Assembly (NCBI GenBank): GCA_944325685.1
Contig: CALVBC010000024.1
Location: forward strand, 1 to 64,000
Direction of reading: 5' to 3'
DNA length: 64,000 nt
Origin: an uncultured Erysipelotrichaceae bacterium
GTDB taxonomy: Bacteria; Bacillota_I; Bacilli_A; Erysipelotrichales; Erysipelotrichaceae
The notes under the pieces: model-generated
Told to the model about the DNA's origin: nothing
Database searches by the model: none
What the model saw: only the letters and a program-made list of their open reading frames with translations
Shown: positions 44,800 through 60,571 of the stretch, piece by piece
Numbering within the stretch: position 1 is the first letter of the stretch
Layout of the letters: each line of letters starts with the position of its first letter
Program-made: the position numbers and the translations under genes

Positions 44800-44870
44800 A
44801 CTATCCTATCCTTAAAACAAGGATTTACACAAACTAAAAGCTATAAACGCTATTTTTGCGGTTTATCGCT

Positions 44871-44876
44871 TATAAT
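44871..44876 (+). promoter_or_regulatory. -10 box of the 44883 hydrolase, leaderless arrangement
   Basis: Perfect TATAAT ending exactly 6 nt before the ATG at 44883, so the expected +1 is the A of that ATG. No ribosome site and no clear -35. Confidence 0.55.
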
Positions 44877-44882
44877 ATGCTC

Positions 44883-45620
44883 ATGGAAGGTTCGATATTA
44901 AGACATCAAAGAGAAACGATACCTTATATCTATCAAGATGGTGACAAAGATCTGATCGTCATCATGTGTCATGGTTTTGGCTCAGATAAGAATGAAGTCG
45001 GAGATATGTTTAAAAGAACAGCTGACGTATTATACACCCATAACATCGCTACCATCCGTTATGATCAAGTTGGCCATGGTGATAACGATTGTGAACTTGT
45101 ATATCGTACATATCAAAGACAAGTCGATGATCTCAAGTTTATATGTGACTATACTAAAAAGCTAGGCTATCAAAAGATCATCCTATTGGGTTTTAGTCTC
45201 GGTGCTAAGGTCATCGGTGACTTACTCAATGACGAAAATGACTTTAAGATGATCATATCTTGGTCAGGGGCGATCGAAAATGGACTTGGTTCACTTAAAG
45301 GAAAACATCGATATGATGTCCAAGATGATAAGCTTATCTTCTATTTCGACTTTCGTTCTCCCCTTGTCTTATCGAGTTGTTGGTCACAAGAGATATCACA
45401 AAGTCGAGCGCTAGATGGATATAATGCCTATGATGGTAAGATCTTGGCCTTTAGAGGTCTTAAAGATACGATCGTCGATCCAGACTGTTTAAAATCGATA
45501 ACTAGTGATATCAAGATCATAAGCTATGAAAGCGATCATATCTTTGATGCATTAAATGATAGTGATATCGCTGATGAAGTGATAAAGATCACTGTCAAAG
45601 CGATCATCGAGCAGAAATAG
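44883..45620 (+). CDS. Alpha/beta hydrolase, likely serine esterase
   Basis: A 245-residue cytosolic hydrolase. CHGFGSDKNEVG (about 24-35) is the oxyanion-hole turn, LLGFSLGAK (about 98-106) is the nucleophile elbow with Ser, and DTIVDPD and SDHIFDA give the expected Asp and His. The substrate is unknown; such proteins are often esterases or acyl hydrolases. Two further in-frame starts lie upstream (44856 TTG, 44877 ATG), but the -10 box position favours 44883 and neither has a ribosome site. It is divergent from ftsA. Confidence 0.82.
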   Translation: MEGSILRHQRETIPYIYQDGDKDLIVIMCHGFGSDKNEVGDMFKRTADVLYTHNIATIRYDQVGHGDNDCELVYRTYQRQVDDLKFICDYTKKLGYQKIILLGFSLGAKVIGDLLNDENDFKMIISWSGAIENGLGSLKGKHRYDVQDDKLIFYFDFRSPLVLSSCWSQEISQSRALDGYNAYDGKILAFRGLKDTIVDPDCLKSITSDIKIISYESDHIFDALNDSDIADEVIKITVKAIIEQK

Positions 45621-54407: not shown

Positions 54408-57035
54408 TCATTTATTTCTGATCGCTGCTTGTGCAGCTGCAAGTCTTGCGATCGGAACACGATATGGTGAACATGATACATATGTTAGTCCTACACGATG
54501 ACAGAAGTCGATCGTCGTTGGATCACCACCGTGCTCACCACAGATACCGAGCTTGATATCTGGACGGGTCTTACGACCTAGTTCAGATGCCATCTTAACG
54601 AGCTTACCTACGCCCTTTTGATCTAGACGAGCAAATGGATCTTGTTCGTAGATCTTGCGATCATAGTAATCCTTTAAGAATGTGCCAGCATCATCACGAG
54701 AGAAACCGAAAGTCATCTGCGTGAGGTCATTAGTACCGAAGGAGAAGAAGCTTGCTTCTTCAGCGATCTCATCAGCGAGTAGTGCTGCTCTTGGGATCTC
54801 GATCATCGTACCGACCTTGTATTCTAAGGTGACACCATTTTCTTCCATGACGCGTTTCGCTGTAGCATCGACGATATCCTTGACATATTTGAGTTCAGCA
54901 CGATCACCGACAAGTGGGATCATGATCTCAGGATGGACATCGTATTCTGGATGGCGTTTGTTGACGTTGATCGCTGCTTGGATAACAGCTTCTGTCTGCA
55001 TTTCTGCGATCTCAGGATATGTGACTGCTAAACGGCAACCGCGGTGACCCATCATCGGGTTGAACTCATGGAGTGAATTGACGACATCTTTGAGCTCATC
55101 AAAGGTCATATTCATCTCTTTGGCGATCTCTTTGATCTCATCATCAGTATGAGGTAAGAATTCATGTAGAGGTGGATCTAAGTAACGGATCGTGACTGGT
55201 AATCCTTCCATCGCCTCATAGATCGCTTCGAAGTCACCTTGTTGCATCGGTCTGATCTTAGCGAGGGCTTGTTTTCTTTGTTCAGTGGTCTTAGAGACGA
55301 TCATCTCACGGACTGCTTTGATCCTTTCGCCTTCAAAGAACATATGTTCTGTACGGACAAGACCGATACCTTGAGCACCGAATTCCTTAGCTTGTTTTGC
55401 ATCTCTTGGTGTATCGGCATTAGTCCTGACTTGGAGCTTCCTTCTTTCATCAGCCCAATTCATGAAGCGTTCAAAGTAACCGCTGATCTTAGCTGGCACT
55501 GTCTTGATCTTTTCACCATATACTTTACCAGTTGTACCATCAAGAGAAATGAAGTCACCTTCATGGTATTCAACACCACCGACACGCATGACTTTCTTAT
55601 CTTCATCAACAACGACATCGCCACAACCAGATACACAGCATGCACCCATACCACGAGCTACGACTGCCGCATGCGATGTCATACCACCACGGACAGTCAT
55701 GATACCTTCAGCTGCTGCCATACCTTCGATATCTTCAGGTGAAGTTTCAAGTCTTACTAAGACGACTTTGTGACCACTTTTAGCCGCTTCGATCGCATCT
55801 TCAGCGGTGAATCTGATCTCACCACAAGCTGCACCTGGTGAAGCAGCGAGACCAGTAGCGATCGGTGTCGCTTTCTTTAGTTCTTCATCATCAAATTGTG
55901 GGTGTAATAGTGAATCAAGCGCTTTTGGTTCGACCATCATAACTGCTTGATCTGGATCGATGAGGCCTTCATCAACTAGGTCACAAGCGATCTTTAAAGC
56001 AGCTGCTGCTGTACGTTTACCATTTCTGGTCTGGAGCATGTATAGTTTGCCACCTTCGATCGTGAATTCCATATCTTGCATATCATGGTAGTGATGTTCA
56101 AGGGTATCACAGATCTTGACGAAATCATCATATGCATGTGGCATGACCTCTTTTAAGTGATCGATCGTTTGTGGTGTTCTGATACCAGCGACGACATCTT
56201 CACCTTGAGCATTCATAAGGAATTCACCAAAGAGCTTTCTTTCACCGGTAGCTGGGTTACGAGTGAAAGCAACACCAGTTCCACAGTCATTACCCATATT
56301 ACCAAAGACCATCATCTGGACATTGACAGCTGTACCCCATGATGATGGGATATCATTTTCTTTACGATAGAAGATCGCCCTTGGGTTATTCCATGAACGG
56401 AAGACAGCTTCGATCGCTTTTTCCATTTGGACATTTGGATCAGTAGGGAAATCTTCATGAAGATTATCATGATAGAACTTTTTGAAACGGACGACCATTT
56501 CCTTTAAGTCATCAGCATCTAATTCAGTATCTAATTTGACACCTTTCTTCTCTTTTAATTCATCGATGATGACTTCAAATTCACTCTTAGGTAGACCCAT
56601 GACAACATCGGCGAACATCTGGATGAAACGACGATATGAGTCATAAGCGAAACGCGGATTATTTGTTCTCGTGGCGATCGTCTCAACGACTTCATCGTTG
56701 ATACCGAGGTTCAAGATGGTATCCATCATACCTGGCATGGATGCTCTCGCACCTGATCTTACTGATACTAATAGTGGATTTTCTTTATCGCCAAGTTTTT
56801 TGCCACTGATCTCTTCGAGTTTGGCTTTAGCTTGAGCGATCTGTTCTAAGATCTCAGGAGCGATCTTTTCGTTATCTTCATAATAACGATTGCAGGCTTC
56901 CGTAGTGATGGTGAAACCCTGTGGTACAGGCATACCGAGATTGGTCATCTCAGCGAGGTTGGCACCTTTACCACCGAGCAGTTCACGCATACCGCCGTTA
57001 CCTTCCGTAAACATATACACGTATTTTGTGCTCAT
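54408..57035 (-). CDS. ppdK: Pyruvate, phosphate dikinase
   Basis: PpdK interconverts pyruvate, ATP and phosphate with PEP, AMP and pyrophosphate, and often replaces or opposes pyruvate kinase in anaerobes. The 875-residue enzyme has the ATP-grasp domain (GGKGANLAEMTNLGMPVP near 17-34), the phospho-His swivel domain with GGMTSHAAVVARGMG (about 452-466), and a PEP-binding barrel with FGTNDLTQM and the conserved Cys in GICGEHGGDP. GAGGAGGAAAT precedes the ATG. The DUF299 regulatory kinase/phosphatase is not adjacent. It stands alone with its own promoter and terminator. Confidence 0.98.
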   Translation of the reverse strand: MSTKYVYMFTEGNGGMRELLGGKGANLAEMTNLGMPVPQGFTITTEACNRYYEDNEKIAPEILEQIAQAKAKLEEISGKKLGDKENPLLVSVRSGARASMPGMMDTILNLGINDEVVETIATRTNNPRFAYDSYRRFIQMFADVVMGLPKSEFEVIIDELKEKKGVKLDTELDADDLKEMVVRFKKFYHDNLHEDFPTDPNVQMEKAIEAVFRSWNNPRAIFYRKENDIPSSWGTAVNVQMMVFGNMGNDCGTGVAFTRNPATGERKLFGEFLMNAQGEDVVAGIRTPQTIDHLKEVMPHAYDDFVKICDTLEHHYHDMQDMEFTIEGGKLYMLQTRNGKRTAAAALKIACDLVDEGLIDPDQAVMMVEPKALDSLLHPQFDDEELKKATPIATGLAASPGAACGEIRFTAEDAIEAAKSGHKVVLVRLETSPEDIEGMAAAEGIMTVRGGMTSHAAVVARGMGACCVSGCGDVVVDEDKKVMRVGGVEYHEGDFISLDGTTGKVYGEKIKTVPAKISGYFERFMNWADERRKLQVRTNADTPRDAKQAKEFGAQGIGLVRTEHMFFEGERIKAVREMIVSKTTEQRKQALAKIRPMQQGDFEAIYEAMEGLPVTIRYLDPPLHEFLPHTDDEIKEIAKEMNMTFDELKDVVNSLHEFNPMMGHRGCRLAVTYPEIAEMQTEAVIQAAINVNKRHPEYDVHPEIMIPLVGDRAELKYVKDIVDATAKRVMEENGVTLEYKVGTMIEIPRAALLADEIAEEASFFSFGTNDLTQMTFGFSRDDAGTFLKDYYDRKIYEQDPFARLDQKGVGKLVKMASELGRKTRPDIKLGICGEHGGDPTTIDFCHRVGLTYVSCSPYRVPIARLAAAQAAIRNK

Positions 57036-57080: not shown

Positions 57081-57989
57081 TTAGAGCGATTTGATAAAAT
57101 TTTCGATGACTTTTGGATAATCTTCATCGAGATAGTTGCCCATATGCGTCGCTTTTTCAAAGATATGGATATCCTTAGGACCACTATTTGCCTCACTTAA
57201 GACGACTGTATTCTTCACATCGACGATCGGATCCTTGGCGCTGTGTAAGAATAGCGTTGGGGTATGATTTGATATCACACCATCATAGCCACTGATCTCA
57301 TCGAGGTTAAGGCCGATATAGCGGCGGTAATTATCATTGATCCCATTAAACAAGAGCTTATCGCTGAAGTTTTTGGCTAATTGGTCATACGCATCGATAA
57401 AGGCGCTTTCGATGATCGTAAATATGACATTTTCTTTGACATCATGGGCTAGATATTGTAAGACCGCTTGGGCACCAAGACCGATGCCATAGATACCGAT
57501 CTTTAAACTTGGATCTTCCTTTATGAGGGCACTAACATATTCAGCTAGATCGATGCCTTCTTTAAAGCCTAAGCTCGTATACTCCCCTTCGCTTTTACCA
57601 TGCGCCCTTAGATCACACATCAAGACATCAAACCCTAGATCATAGAAGATATGAGCTTGATGTAAGATACCATAGTGATCATTATTGACGCCATGTAATA
57701 AGATGACAAGCTTATGATCGTTATTTTTGACTCTGACCGCATGTAATTTTAAGCCATCATACGAAGTGATATCAAAGTCACTATACTCAGTATCCTTGAG
57801 CCAATTAAGGTCGACTAATAGCGTGTTCTTGAAAAGATCTAAAGGGATGCCATCTGGTTTATTAGCCTCGATATCGATATCCTTTTTGGTCTTGAATAGT
57901 TGATCGAATTTGATCTTACTGGCTTGGATATACGCAAGTGGTAATCCAGCAGCTACTGCGCCTAAAATTATCGCTTTCTTTAGTTTCAT
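57081..57989 (-). CDS. Alpha/beta-fold protein lacking the catalytic serine
   Basis: A 302-residue protein with an N-terminal hydrophobic segment (about 5-22) that could anchor or export it. The fold pattern of the alpha/beta hydrolases is clear: ILLHGVNNDHYG (about 96-107), CDLRAHGKSEGE, SAKDPIVDV and KATHMGNY supply oxyanion turn, Asp and His. The nucleophile elbow normally reading G-x-S-x-G reads YGIGLGAQ (about 170), so the Ser position is Gly (GGT). It may be inactive or work differently. It overlaps valS by 4 nt and may share its T-box control. Confidence 0.8.
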   Translation of the reverse strand: MKLKKAIILGAVAAGLPLAYIQASKIKFDQLFKTKKDIDIEANKPDGIPLDLFKNTLLVDLNWLKDTEYSDFDITSYDGLKLHAVRVKNNDHKLVILLHGVNNDHYGILHQAHIFYDLGFDVLMCDLRAHGKSEGEYTSLGFKEGIDLAEYVSALIKEDPSLKIGIYGIGLGAQAVLQYLAHDVKENVIFTIIESAFIDAYDQLAKNFSDKLLFNGINDNYRRYIGLNLDEISGYDGVISNHTPTLFLHSAKDPIVDVKNTVVLSEANSGPKDIHIFEKATHMGNYLDEDYPKVIENFIKSL

Positions 57990-60571
57990 ATACGTACCTT
58001 CAATTCTTCAAGTTTTGCGACTAGCGTATCATAAGAAGCCTGATATTTAGCTTGCTTGTCCTTTTCTTCTTGGACTTTGAATGCTGGCGCTTTATTTAAG
58101 AAGCTCGGATTAGCGAGGATATGGTTGCTTCGAGCAAGTTCAGCCTTTAGACCTTCAAGCTCTTTTTCGATCTTAGCGATCTCTTCTTTGACATCGACGA
58201 TCTCTTCCATCGCAAACTCGATCTTGTCTTCGCCGATCGGACGGACTAGAGTCTCGTTTTCGATCTTATCGACGACTAAGACATGACACATCTTATATAG
58301 CGTATCCTTCATATTCTGATCGATAGTGAAGCTAACAGTCGCTTGCATATGGAGATCTTTACTCGGCTTGATATCATTCTCACTGCGTAATTCTCTAACT
58401 TGCTTGATGATCTGGATGATCGTTTGGGCGTTATCTGCTAGGTTTTGATCGATACCATCGATCTTATCAGGCCAATGAGCGATACATACCGACTCTTCTT
58501 TTGAATGGATCTCTTGATAGATCTCTTCGGATACAAATGGCAAGTATGGATGGATCAAGATCGTGATCTTATCGAGGATGTAGATGAGATTTTTGAGCGT
58601 ATCTTCCTTTAATTTAGGATCATTTAGACTGCTCTTAGCGAATTCGATATAGTTACTACAGAAATCGTTCCAGATGAAGTCAGATAGTTCATTACCAGCG
58701 ATACCGAATTCATAACGATCAAGGTTCATCGTGACCTGATCGATCGTCTTATTGAGGCGATCATAGATCCAGTGATCATAGATCGTATGTGGTCTAGCTT
58801 CGATCTTGATATCTTTATCTTCCCTATTCATTAGGACAAAGCGTGCTGCATTATAGAGCTTGTTGATGAAATTCCAAGCTGCTTCAAGTTTTTGTGTTGA
58901 ATAGTTAGTATCAAGACCTGGGGCAGCATTGGTCAAGATATAGTAACGTAAAGCATCACAACCATACTTATCGATGATATCAAGCGGATCGATACCATTA
59001 CCAAGCGATTTTGACATCTTGCGACCCTTTTCATCACGGATAAGACCGTGGATCAAACAATCCCTGAATGGGACATCATCCATGAAATGACGAGCACTAA
59101 AGGCCATCCTAGCAACCCAGAAGAAGATGATATCATAACCGGTCACAAGACAAGATGTTGGGAAATAGCGTTTTAGATCCTCTGTTTCTTCAGGCCAACC
59201 AAAGACGCTGAAAGGCCATAGAGCACTAGAGAACCATGTATCGAGGACATCTTCATCCTGATGCCAGTTTTCGATATCCTTTGGCGGATCGATCTCACAA
59301 TAGATCTCACCAGTCTCATTGTGATAGTATACTGGGATGCGATGTCCCCACCACAACTGTCTTGAGATACACCAGTCTTCGATATTCTCAAGCCAGCCGA
59401 TAAAGGTCTTTTCAAAGCGTTTTGGATAGAAATTGATCTTTGTCTTAGGATCTTTTTGTTTTTCTAAAACCGCATCAGCTAATGGTTTCATCTTGACGAA
59501 CCATTGTTTAGATAGATATGGTTCGACCATGACGCCAGTCCTTTCGGAGTGACCAACACTGTGCATGATCTCTTCTTCTTTGATGAAGTGACCTTCATCT
59601 TTGATCCTTTGAACGACTTTTTCACGGCATTCATAGCGATCAAGACCATTGAATTCACCAGCTAATTCATTCATCGTCGCATCTTCATTCATACAGATCG
59701 GCATATCTAAACCATGACGTAAAGCGATCTGATAGTCATTTGGATCGTGAGCTGGCGTACATTTCATCGCCCCACTACCAAAGCCGATCTCGATATATTC
59801 ATCACCGATGATCGGTAGGATATCACCATTGGCTGGATTGATACACTTTTTACCGATGAGGTGATTCAATCTTTCATCATTTGGATTGACGACGACACAT
59901 ACATCACCAAACATCGTCTCTGGTCTTGTGGTCGCAACTTCAAAAGTCTCATCACTATCGACGACATCATATAGGAAATAATACATCTTACCTTTGACAT
60001 CTTTGTGGATGACTTCGATATTGCTTAAAGCGGTCTTAGCTTCAGGGTCCCAGTTGATGATGCGCTTGCCCTGATAGATAAGGCCTTCTTTATAATATTC
60101 GACAAAGACCTTTTTGACAGCATTAGAAAGACCTTCATCTAAAGTGAAACGCTCTTTAGCATAGTCAACTGATATACCAAAACGCGCCCATTGTTTATGG
60201 ATGTGGTCAGCATATTCATCTTTCCACTCCCAAGCTTTCTCTAAGAATTTCTCACGACCGATATCATAACGCGAGATACCCTGCTCCTTAAGCCTTTCAT
60301 CGACTTTGGCTTGGGTCGCGATACCTGCATGGTCCATACCTGGTACCCATAAGACATCTTCGCCTTTTAAACGATGATAGCGCGCCAATAGGTCTTGCAT
60401 CGCATTATCCATCGCATGGCCCAAATGTAATTTACCAGTGACATTTGGTGGAGGGATGACGATCGAATATGGTTTCTTTGATAGATCACCACAGCTGAAA
60501 TAGCCGTGTTTTAGCCAACCTTCGTACTTTCCCTCTTCAACTTTTTTAAAATCGTACTTATTGTCTAGCAT
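57986..60571 (-). CDS. valS: Valine-tRNA ligase
   Basis: ValS charges tRNA-Val and edits Thr. The 861-residue class I enzyme has PPPNVTGKLHLGHAMDNA with the HLGH motif (about 40-57). The CP1 editing domain (about 185-340) has ATTRPETMFGD. KMSKSLGNGIDP lies near 517-528, followed by the anticodon domain and the C-terminal coiled coil with KIEKELEGLKAEL typical of ValS. GGAAGGAG precedes the ATG. It is controlled by the T-box at 60580-60800. Confidence 0.98.
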   Translation of the reverse strand: MLDNKYDFKKVEEGKYEGWLKHGYFSCGDLSKKPYSIVIPPPNVTGKLHLGHAMDNAMQDLLARYHRLKGEDVLWVPGMDHAGIATQAKVDERLKEQGISRYDIGREKFLEKAWEWKDEYADHIHKQWARFGISVDYAKERFTLDEGLSNAVKKVFVEYYKEGLIYQGKRIINWDPEAKTALSNIEVIHKDVKGKMYYFLYDVVDSDETFEVATTRPETMFGDVCVVVNPNDERLNHLIGKKCINPANGDILPIIGDEYIEIGFGSGAMKCTPAHDPNDYQIALRHGLDMPICMNEDATMNELAGEFNGLDRYECREKVVQRIKDEGHFIKEEEIMHSVGHSERTGVMVEPYLSKQWFVKMKPLADAVLEKQKDPKTKINFYPKRFEKTFIGWLENIEDWCISRQLWWGHRIPVYYHNETGEIYCEIDPPKDIENWHQDEDVLDTWFSSALWPFSVFGWPEETEDLKRYFPTSCLVTGYDIIFFWVARMAFSARHFMDDVPFRDCLIHGLIRDEKGRKMSKSLGNGIDPLDIIDKYGCDALRYYILTNAAPGLDTNYSTQKLEAAWNFINKLYNAARFVLMNREDKDIKIEARPHTIYDHWIYDRLNKTIDQVTMNLDRYEFGIAGNELSDFIWNDFCSNYIEFAKSSLNDPKLKEDTLKNLIYILDKITILIHPYLPFVSEEIYQEIHSKEESVCIAHWPDKIDGIDQNLADNAQTIIQIIKQVRELRSENDIKPSKDLHMQATVSFTIDQNMKDTLYKMCHVLVVDKIENETLVRPIGEDKIEFAMEEIVDVKEEIAKIEKELEGLKAELARSNHILANPSFLNKAPAFKVQEEKDKQAKYQASYDTLVAKLEELKVRI

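Follow-up and report, generated by a model that had tools for sequence, protein, structure and literature searches.

Loss of catalysis within the alpha/beta hydrolase fold is a known event, represented by neuroligin and the NDRG family, and here it has probably taken place in a bacterial family. According to the available portion of PMC5943944, neuroligin and other noncatalytic cholinesterase-like proteins have a hydrolase fold without a functional triad that has been retained for binding. The NDRG family, as described in the accessible part of PMC7022630, has the fold with its triad replaced and is thought to be nonenzymatic; in human NDRG3, every triad residue has been replaced and cap helices block the substrate path. 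The protein described here is like neuroligin in having a hydrolase fold that lacks the full triad, although neuroligin is an animal adhesion protein and the two are likened by description, not by sequence. It differs from human NDRG3 in keeping its Asp and His. For pseudoenzymes in general, scaffolding, allosteric, and competitive roles have been set out, together with a warning about migrated catalytic residues (PMC10211241, in the text available). The noncatalytic hydrolase-fold proteins in the literature that we found are animal proteins (neuroligin, PMC5943944; NDRG, PMC7022630; each source as far as available), and no paper on a valS-linked hydrolase-fold family was found among the matches listed from the open-licence literature, judged by title and the start of the abstract.

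On the enzymatic side, the Pf2001 esterase of Pyrococcus furiosus (5g59), of the Hydrolase_4 or S33 type, has the same predicted fold and the same elbow, Asp, and His positions, and the HG and D-x-R-x-x-G-x-S motifs are common to both proteins; the difference is that the protein described here has Gly where the nucleophilic Ser is expected. Orthologs linked to valS in a second genus occupy the same locus, belong to the same family, and have also lost catalytic residues. They usually replace both Ser and His, whereas the present protein keeps the His, as do three of them (Ser to Gly in L111 and L255 and Ser to Asp in L262). A bacterial series at a single conserved site on the chromosome, running from intact through half-lost to fully lost active sites in related species, would lend itself to asking how an enzyme turns into a pseudoenzyme, in what order the residues go, and which function remains.

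The valS-linked gene and its active site

The gene lies in the window, by which we mean the whole 64,000-nucleotide stretch of DNA that was analyzed, on a 77.6-kb contig of a 1.36-Mb genome in 31 contigs. It occupies 57081..57989 on the minus strand and encodes an alpha/beta hydrolase-fold protein of 302 residues, an assignment based on the open frame, a Pfam Hydrolase_4 match (E 3.2e-14; 53.2 bits against a curated cut-off of 27), an AlphaFold2 model (pLDDT 95.4, pTM 0.92), and same-locus orthologs in related genera. Upstream on the same strand is a gene (57986..60571) that we take to be valS, as it was named earlier and from the look of its sequence; its stop overlaps the hydrolase-fold start by 4 bp. 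Next downstream, 45 bp past the hydrolase-fold stop, is what is presumably ppdK (pyruvate phosphate dikinase; 54408..57035, minus strand), a name suggested by its sequence. The open reading frame, its coordinates, the YGIGLGAQ elbow, the Asp in SAKDPIVD, and the His in KATHMG all agree with the original prediction, as does an intact frame coupled to valS.

An ortholog stands directly after valS on the same strand in seven of nine same-genus genomes, that of the window included, with valS stop to ortholog start distances of −14 to +1. Neither of the remaining genomes, G003 and G007, is informative on the presence of an ortholog because the contig ends just after valS in G003 and inside valS in G007; a search of both found no ortholog, and G003 has a distant homolog only. 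These genomes are the nearest by ValS, and their breaks fall inside or just after valS (G007:C134 and G007:C10; G003:C142), G007 resuming inside ppdK. G007 is the nearest species compared, its truncated ValS (378 residues) being 95% identical, and its assembly gap lies exactly at the hydrolase-fold locus.

The model keeps the layout of a nucleophile elbow, with a strand at residues 163 to 169, a turn, and a helix at residues 171 to 180. At the turn, codon 170 (57480..57482, minus strand) is GGT, so that the elbow reads IYGIGLGAQA and has GIGLG in place of the G-x-S-x-G of an active serine hydrolase. Glycine also occupies the serine position in neuroligins. The alignment with homologs that had been proposed for this residue places Gly170 in the column of the Ser of intact homologs, and the Ser is kept in the nearest ortholog compared (L003, 48% identity). 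By alignment, the catalytic acid is kept as Asp253 (GAT, 57231..57233, minus strand) and the catalytic base as His282 (CAT, 57144..57146, minus strand). The oxyanion-loop motif His99-Gly100 (57690..57695, minus strand), which falls in the conserved columns H99 and G100, is kept as well. L003 has Arg in place of the His and HA in place of HG; thus, the window protein and L003, which are closest sisters, lack different triad residues. Because Ser170 is absent, a classical acyl-enzyme mechanism is impossible in the window protein.

The best solved match to the predicted fold is the Pf2001 esterase (Z 29.3, rmsd 2.5, 257 residues aligned, 24% identity), whose elbow Ser aligns with Gly170. The structure alignment comprised the window protein and 65 of the 80 loci kept in a second scan of named genomes; one partial protein and 14 others were left out. 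Curated NCBI families gave only weak matches far below their cut-offs, the best being the UilS lactonase (33 of 400 bits).

Catalytic residues among homologs

A family-wide search of 272 genomes from 59 genera gave a match in 188 genomes, and the triad was examined in 113 of the best-matching loci from those 188. Homologs were termed linked when valS or ppdK lay on the same strand in the flank (90 by valS and 3 by ppdK alone); three linked rows sit 898 to 1128 bp from the valS match. By this definition, 93 homologs, from at least 12 of the 59 genera searched, were linked and 20 were unlinked, some of the latter lying near contig ends (e.g., L121) and being possibly misclassed. L002 and L012 fell below the alignment threshold and were dropped, and L068 and L071 are identical proteins. 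The triad was intact in all 20 unlinked homologs; among the linked ones, it was intact in 58, altered in 34, and unreadable in 1. A further ten loci, taken from the second genus alone and so a sample enriched for altered rows, comprised eight complete rows, every one of them altered, and two truncated rows (Asn and Ser at the nucleophile). With the added second-genus rows included, Ser, His, and/or Asp had been lost in 42 of the 100 linked rows with a readable triad, and a fold-based "hydrolase" label would probably misstate the activity of these members. By genus, the altered rows number 2 among 7 readable linked rows for that of the window and 40 among 54 for the second, with none elsewhere among the linked rows examined. 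The second scan of named genomes kept 80 of 175 loci, and its triads were left untallied because one of its two patterns requires Ser.

The main pattern in the second genus is Ser to Asn or Asp with His to Phe. Among the first 34 altered proteins, drawn from both genera, His99-Gly100 is present in 28 and Asp253 in 31, and for 10 of the 34, S170 and H282 are the sole departures within a set of 32 highly conserved columns. In those ten, catalysis has apparently been lost selectively and the remainder kept. L135 and L261, in or beside the Asn-type clade of the second genus, have kept Ser, have Ser at the catalytic Asp position, and show a gap at His; they may have followed another path of loss or have regained Ser. 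In another second-genus pair, L109 and L116, all three catalytic positions are altered (to Asp, Asn, and Phe) at 86% identity and a dN/dS of 0.092.

With the triad columns removed, the window protein and L003 formed a pair (SH-aLRT 100) in a quick tree of both genera. The pair falls within a 13-row set (SH-aLRT 99) that stands apart from the second genus and in which all 11 remaining rows are intact; the number of separate losses is thus two or more. Every row is linked in the sets of 2, 13, and 36 rows that include the window protein. Within the second genus, one quick tree gave two losses and another gave three. In the tree of both genera, the state changes four times, once at L079, which has X in the His column. 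In the second genus, several forks are open and long branches meet, and a more careful tree does not reject a grouping of the Asn-type with the Asp-type clade (AU P = 0.148). The second-genus loss groups are therefore not taken as certainly independent, a single shared loss of the two large clades passing that test.

Linked and unlinked homologs also differ at the N terminus. In the window protein, DSSP on the model gives a helix at residues 2 to 32 (57894..57986, minus strand) that may anchor the protein in the membrane. The original prediction had the protein anchored at this end; the helix is indeed predicted, yet with a best 19-residue mean hydropathy of 1.68 it is a borderline case, which makes an anchor no more than possible. 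A 19-residue mean of 1.6 is reached in 8 of 93 linked versus 18 of 20 unlinked homologs. The helix is weakly hydrophobic in the linked group (median 1.28, n = 93) and strongly so in the unlinked group (median 2.53, n = 20), medians that suggest a difference in membrane behavior.

Selection, rate, and the case for a maintained protein

From these comparisons of sequence, we think it probable that the window protein is a maintained pseudoenzyme that would bind or scaffold instead of hydrolyzing. A catalytic residue is missing; selection is seen directly in altered pairs of the second genus, and the window's own line, where dS is saturated, shows a codon-position bias. The dN/dS ratio was computed for 22 chosen pairs; in two of them, the window pair and one intact pair, dS was undefined. 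The ten altered pairs, all from the second genus, gave 0.022 to 0.103, and ten intact pairs gave 0.042 to 0.184. These values show strong purifying selection in the altered second-genus pairs. Between the window gene and L003, codon positions 1, 2, and 3 differ by 0.38, 0.35, and 0.61, against 0.35, 0.24, and 0.59 for the intact pair L004/L006; the window sequence is thus constrained, though less than the intact pair. The original suggestion of a maintained, possibly noncatalytic binding protein gains from this selection on altered second-genus pairs and from the losses at the same locus in two genera.

Branch lengths were also compared as hydrolase/ValS ratios, on a topology that was fixed by hand and departs from the free ValS tree. 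The ratio was 7.4 on the stem of the window protein and L003, 2.9 on the window tip, and 4.9 on the L003 tip; elsewhere, eight branches had 2.3 to 3.4 and the last four had 0.6, 1.8, 3.9 (an inner branch), and about 15 (a deep branch with a ValS length of 0.02). In a wider set, the same stem had 4.23 against a median of 1.80 and ranked sixth of 112 branches. Above it were three branches without a loss and one inside an altered clade. The Asp-type clade had a stem at 5.11 and an inner branch at 7.01, the highest of all, and the Asn-type stem had 2.23. Median ratios were 1.46 for altered-only branches (n = 41) and 1.95 for intact-only branches (n = 56). The rate is therefore fast near two loss events and not generally raised later; since fast branches also exist without a loss, they are not peculiar to losses.

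We propose that the ancestor would have been a serine hydrolase of the Hydrolase_4 type sited directly behind valS. From the fast stem branch, the ancestor shared by the window species and L003 had probably already been freed from catalytic constraint. The two lines would then have diverged, with Ser to Gly in the window and with His to Arg and oxyanion Gly to Ala in L003, both keeping the fold, the position, and most of the pocket motifs. By analogy with neuroligin and NDRG, the protein most likely would work by binding, either by holding a ligand where the active site used to be or by engaging another protein through its surface.

The same data bear on another reading, in which constraint has simply relaxed, the gene is drifting to loss, and the window protein and its sister represent early decay without a present function. 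The two sisters have lost different catalytic residues, their stem is fast, and the genome is small; moreover, the window protein departs from the 32 conserved columns at 5 and L003 at 8, compared with 0 to 2 in 56 of 58 intact relatives, a count compatible also with relaxed constraint. Further reservations about a maintained pseudoenzyme are that the Gly170 allele comes from one genome, that dS is saturated in the window lineage, and that the stem is exceeded by branches without a loss. However, at 48% identity neither frame is broken, and codon position 3 has changed more than positions 1 and 2; the overlap with valS is retained in both lines (−4 in the window and −8 in L003); the window tip has a ratio like that of most other branches in the genus; and altered second-genus relatives are under strong purifying selection. 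On balance, we regard decay as unlikely and a maintained pseudoenzyme as the better account.

Possible residual chemistry and the codon at position 170

Some catalysis might persist if the protein used another nucleophile, as the original prediction had allowed, or if its Asp-His pair activated water directly. The window protein still has Asp253, His282, and its oxyanion motif, and pseudoenzymes with migrated catalytic residues are on record (PMC10211241, in the text available). However, there is no Ser or Cys within residues 166 to 175. Ser195, which ends strand beta-6, is not a newly gained substitute: the same position carries Cys or Ser in 54 of the 58 intact linked homologs and in 19 of the 20 unlinked ones. 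The idea of another nucleophile therefore finds no support in the sequence. In addition, His is missing from the sister, and both Ser and His are missing from most altered second-genus proteins, so a common replacement mechanism would have to run without either residue. We consider a surviving enzyme quite improbable, less likely still than outright decay.

The change from AGT to GGT by one base, as first proposed, is possible but not the obvious route. In 78 intact homologs, the nucleophile codon is TCN in 69 and AGT or AGC in 9; it is TCT in L003, from which GGT is two changes away. Two intact members of the same genus (L007 and L008) use AGC, so that an AGY ancestor is possible, and 12 of the 15 serine codons in the window gene are AGT or AGC. 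A first scan of named genomes for the same or a near species gave no match, and the allele is known from one genome, that of the window. A base-calling or assembly error, with Ser at codon 170 in the organism and an ordinary hydrolase as its product, draws on this single genome, on the gap in the nearest species compared, and on a conceivable one-base slip from AGT, but it is very unlikely, given the TCN codons of most intact homologs and of the nearest ortholog and given that an error in this genome cannot yield the sister's separate loss of the His and the oxyanion Gly or the fast stem.

Because many relatives at the same locus have likewise lost catalytic residues and yet the protein is kept, the main job of the valS-linked protein is probably not catalysis. 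A tentative extension, which we find tenable without favoring it, is that an ancient noncatalytic job is common to intact and altered members and that catalysis was optional, dropped on at least two occasions and possibly on three or four, Ser often going before His. If so, the window protein would represent an early stage, with Ser gone and His present, as in L111, L255, and L262.

Regulation of an active close paralog was considered as a role and finds no support in the window's genome: no other protein there matched at E ≤ 0.001, the next match being at 0.067. More distant Hydrolase_4 proteins are present in that genome. A second alpha/beta hydrolase (44856-45620, plus strand), with Hydrolase_4 above the cut-off and an apparently intact GFSLG elbow, lies about 12 kb away in the window, and a hydrolase gene of the same size (L012) shares a contig with the sister's ortholog.
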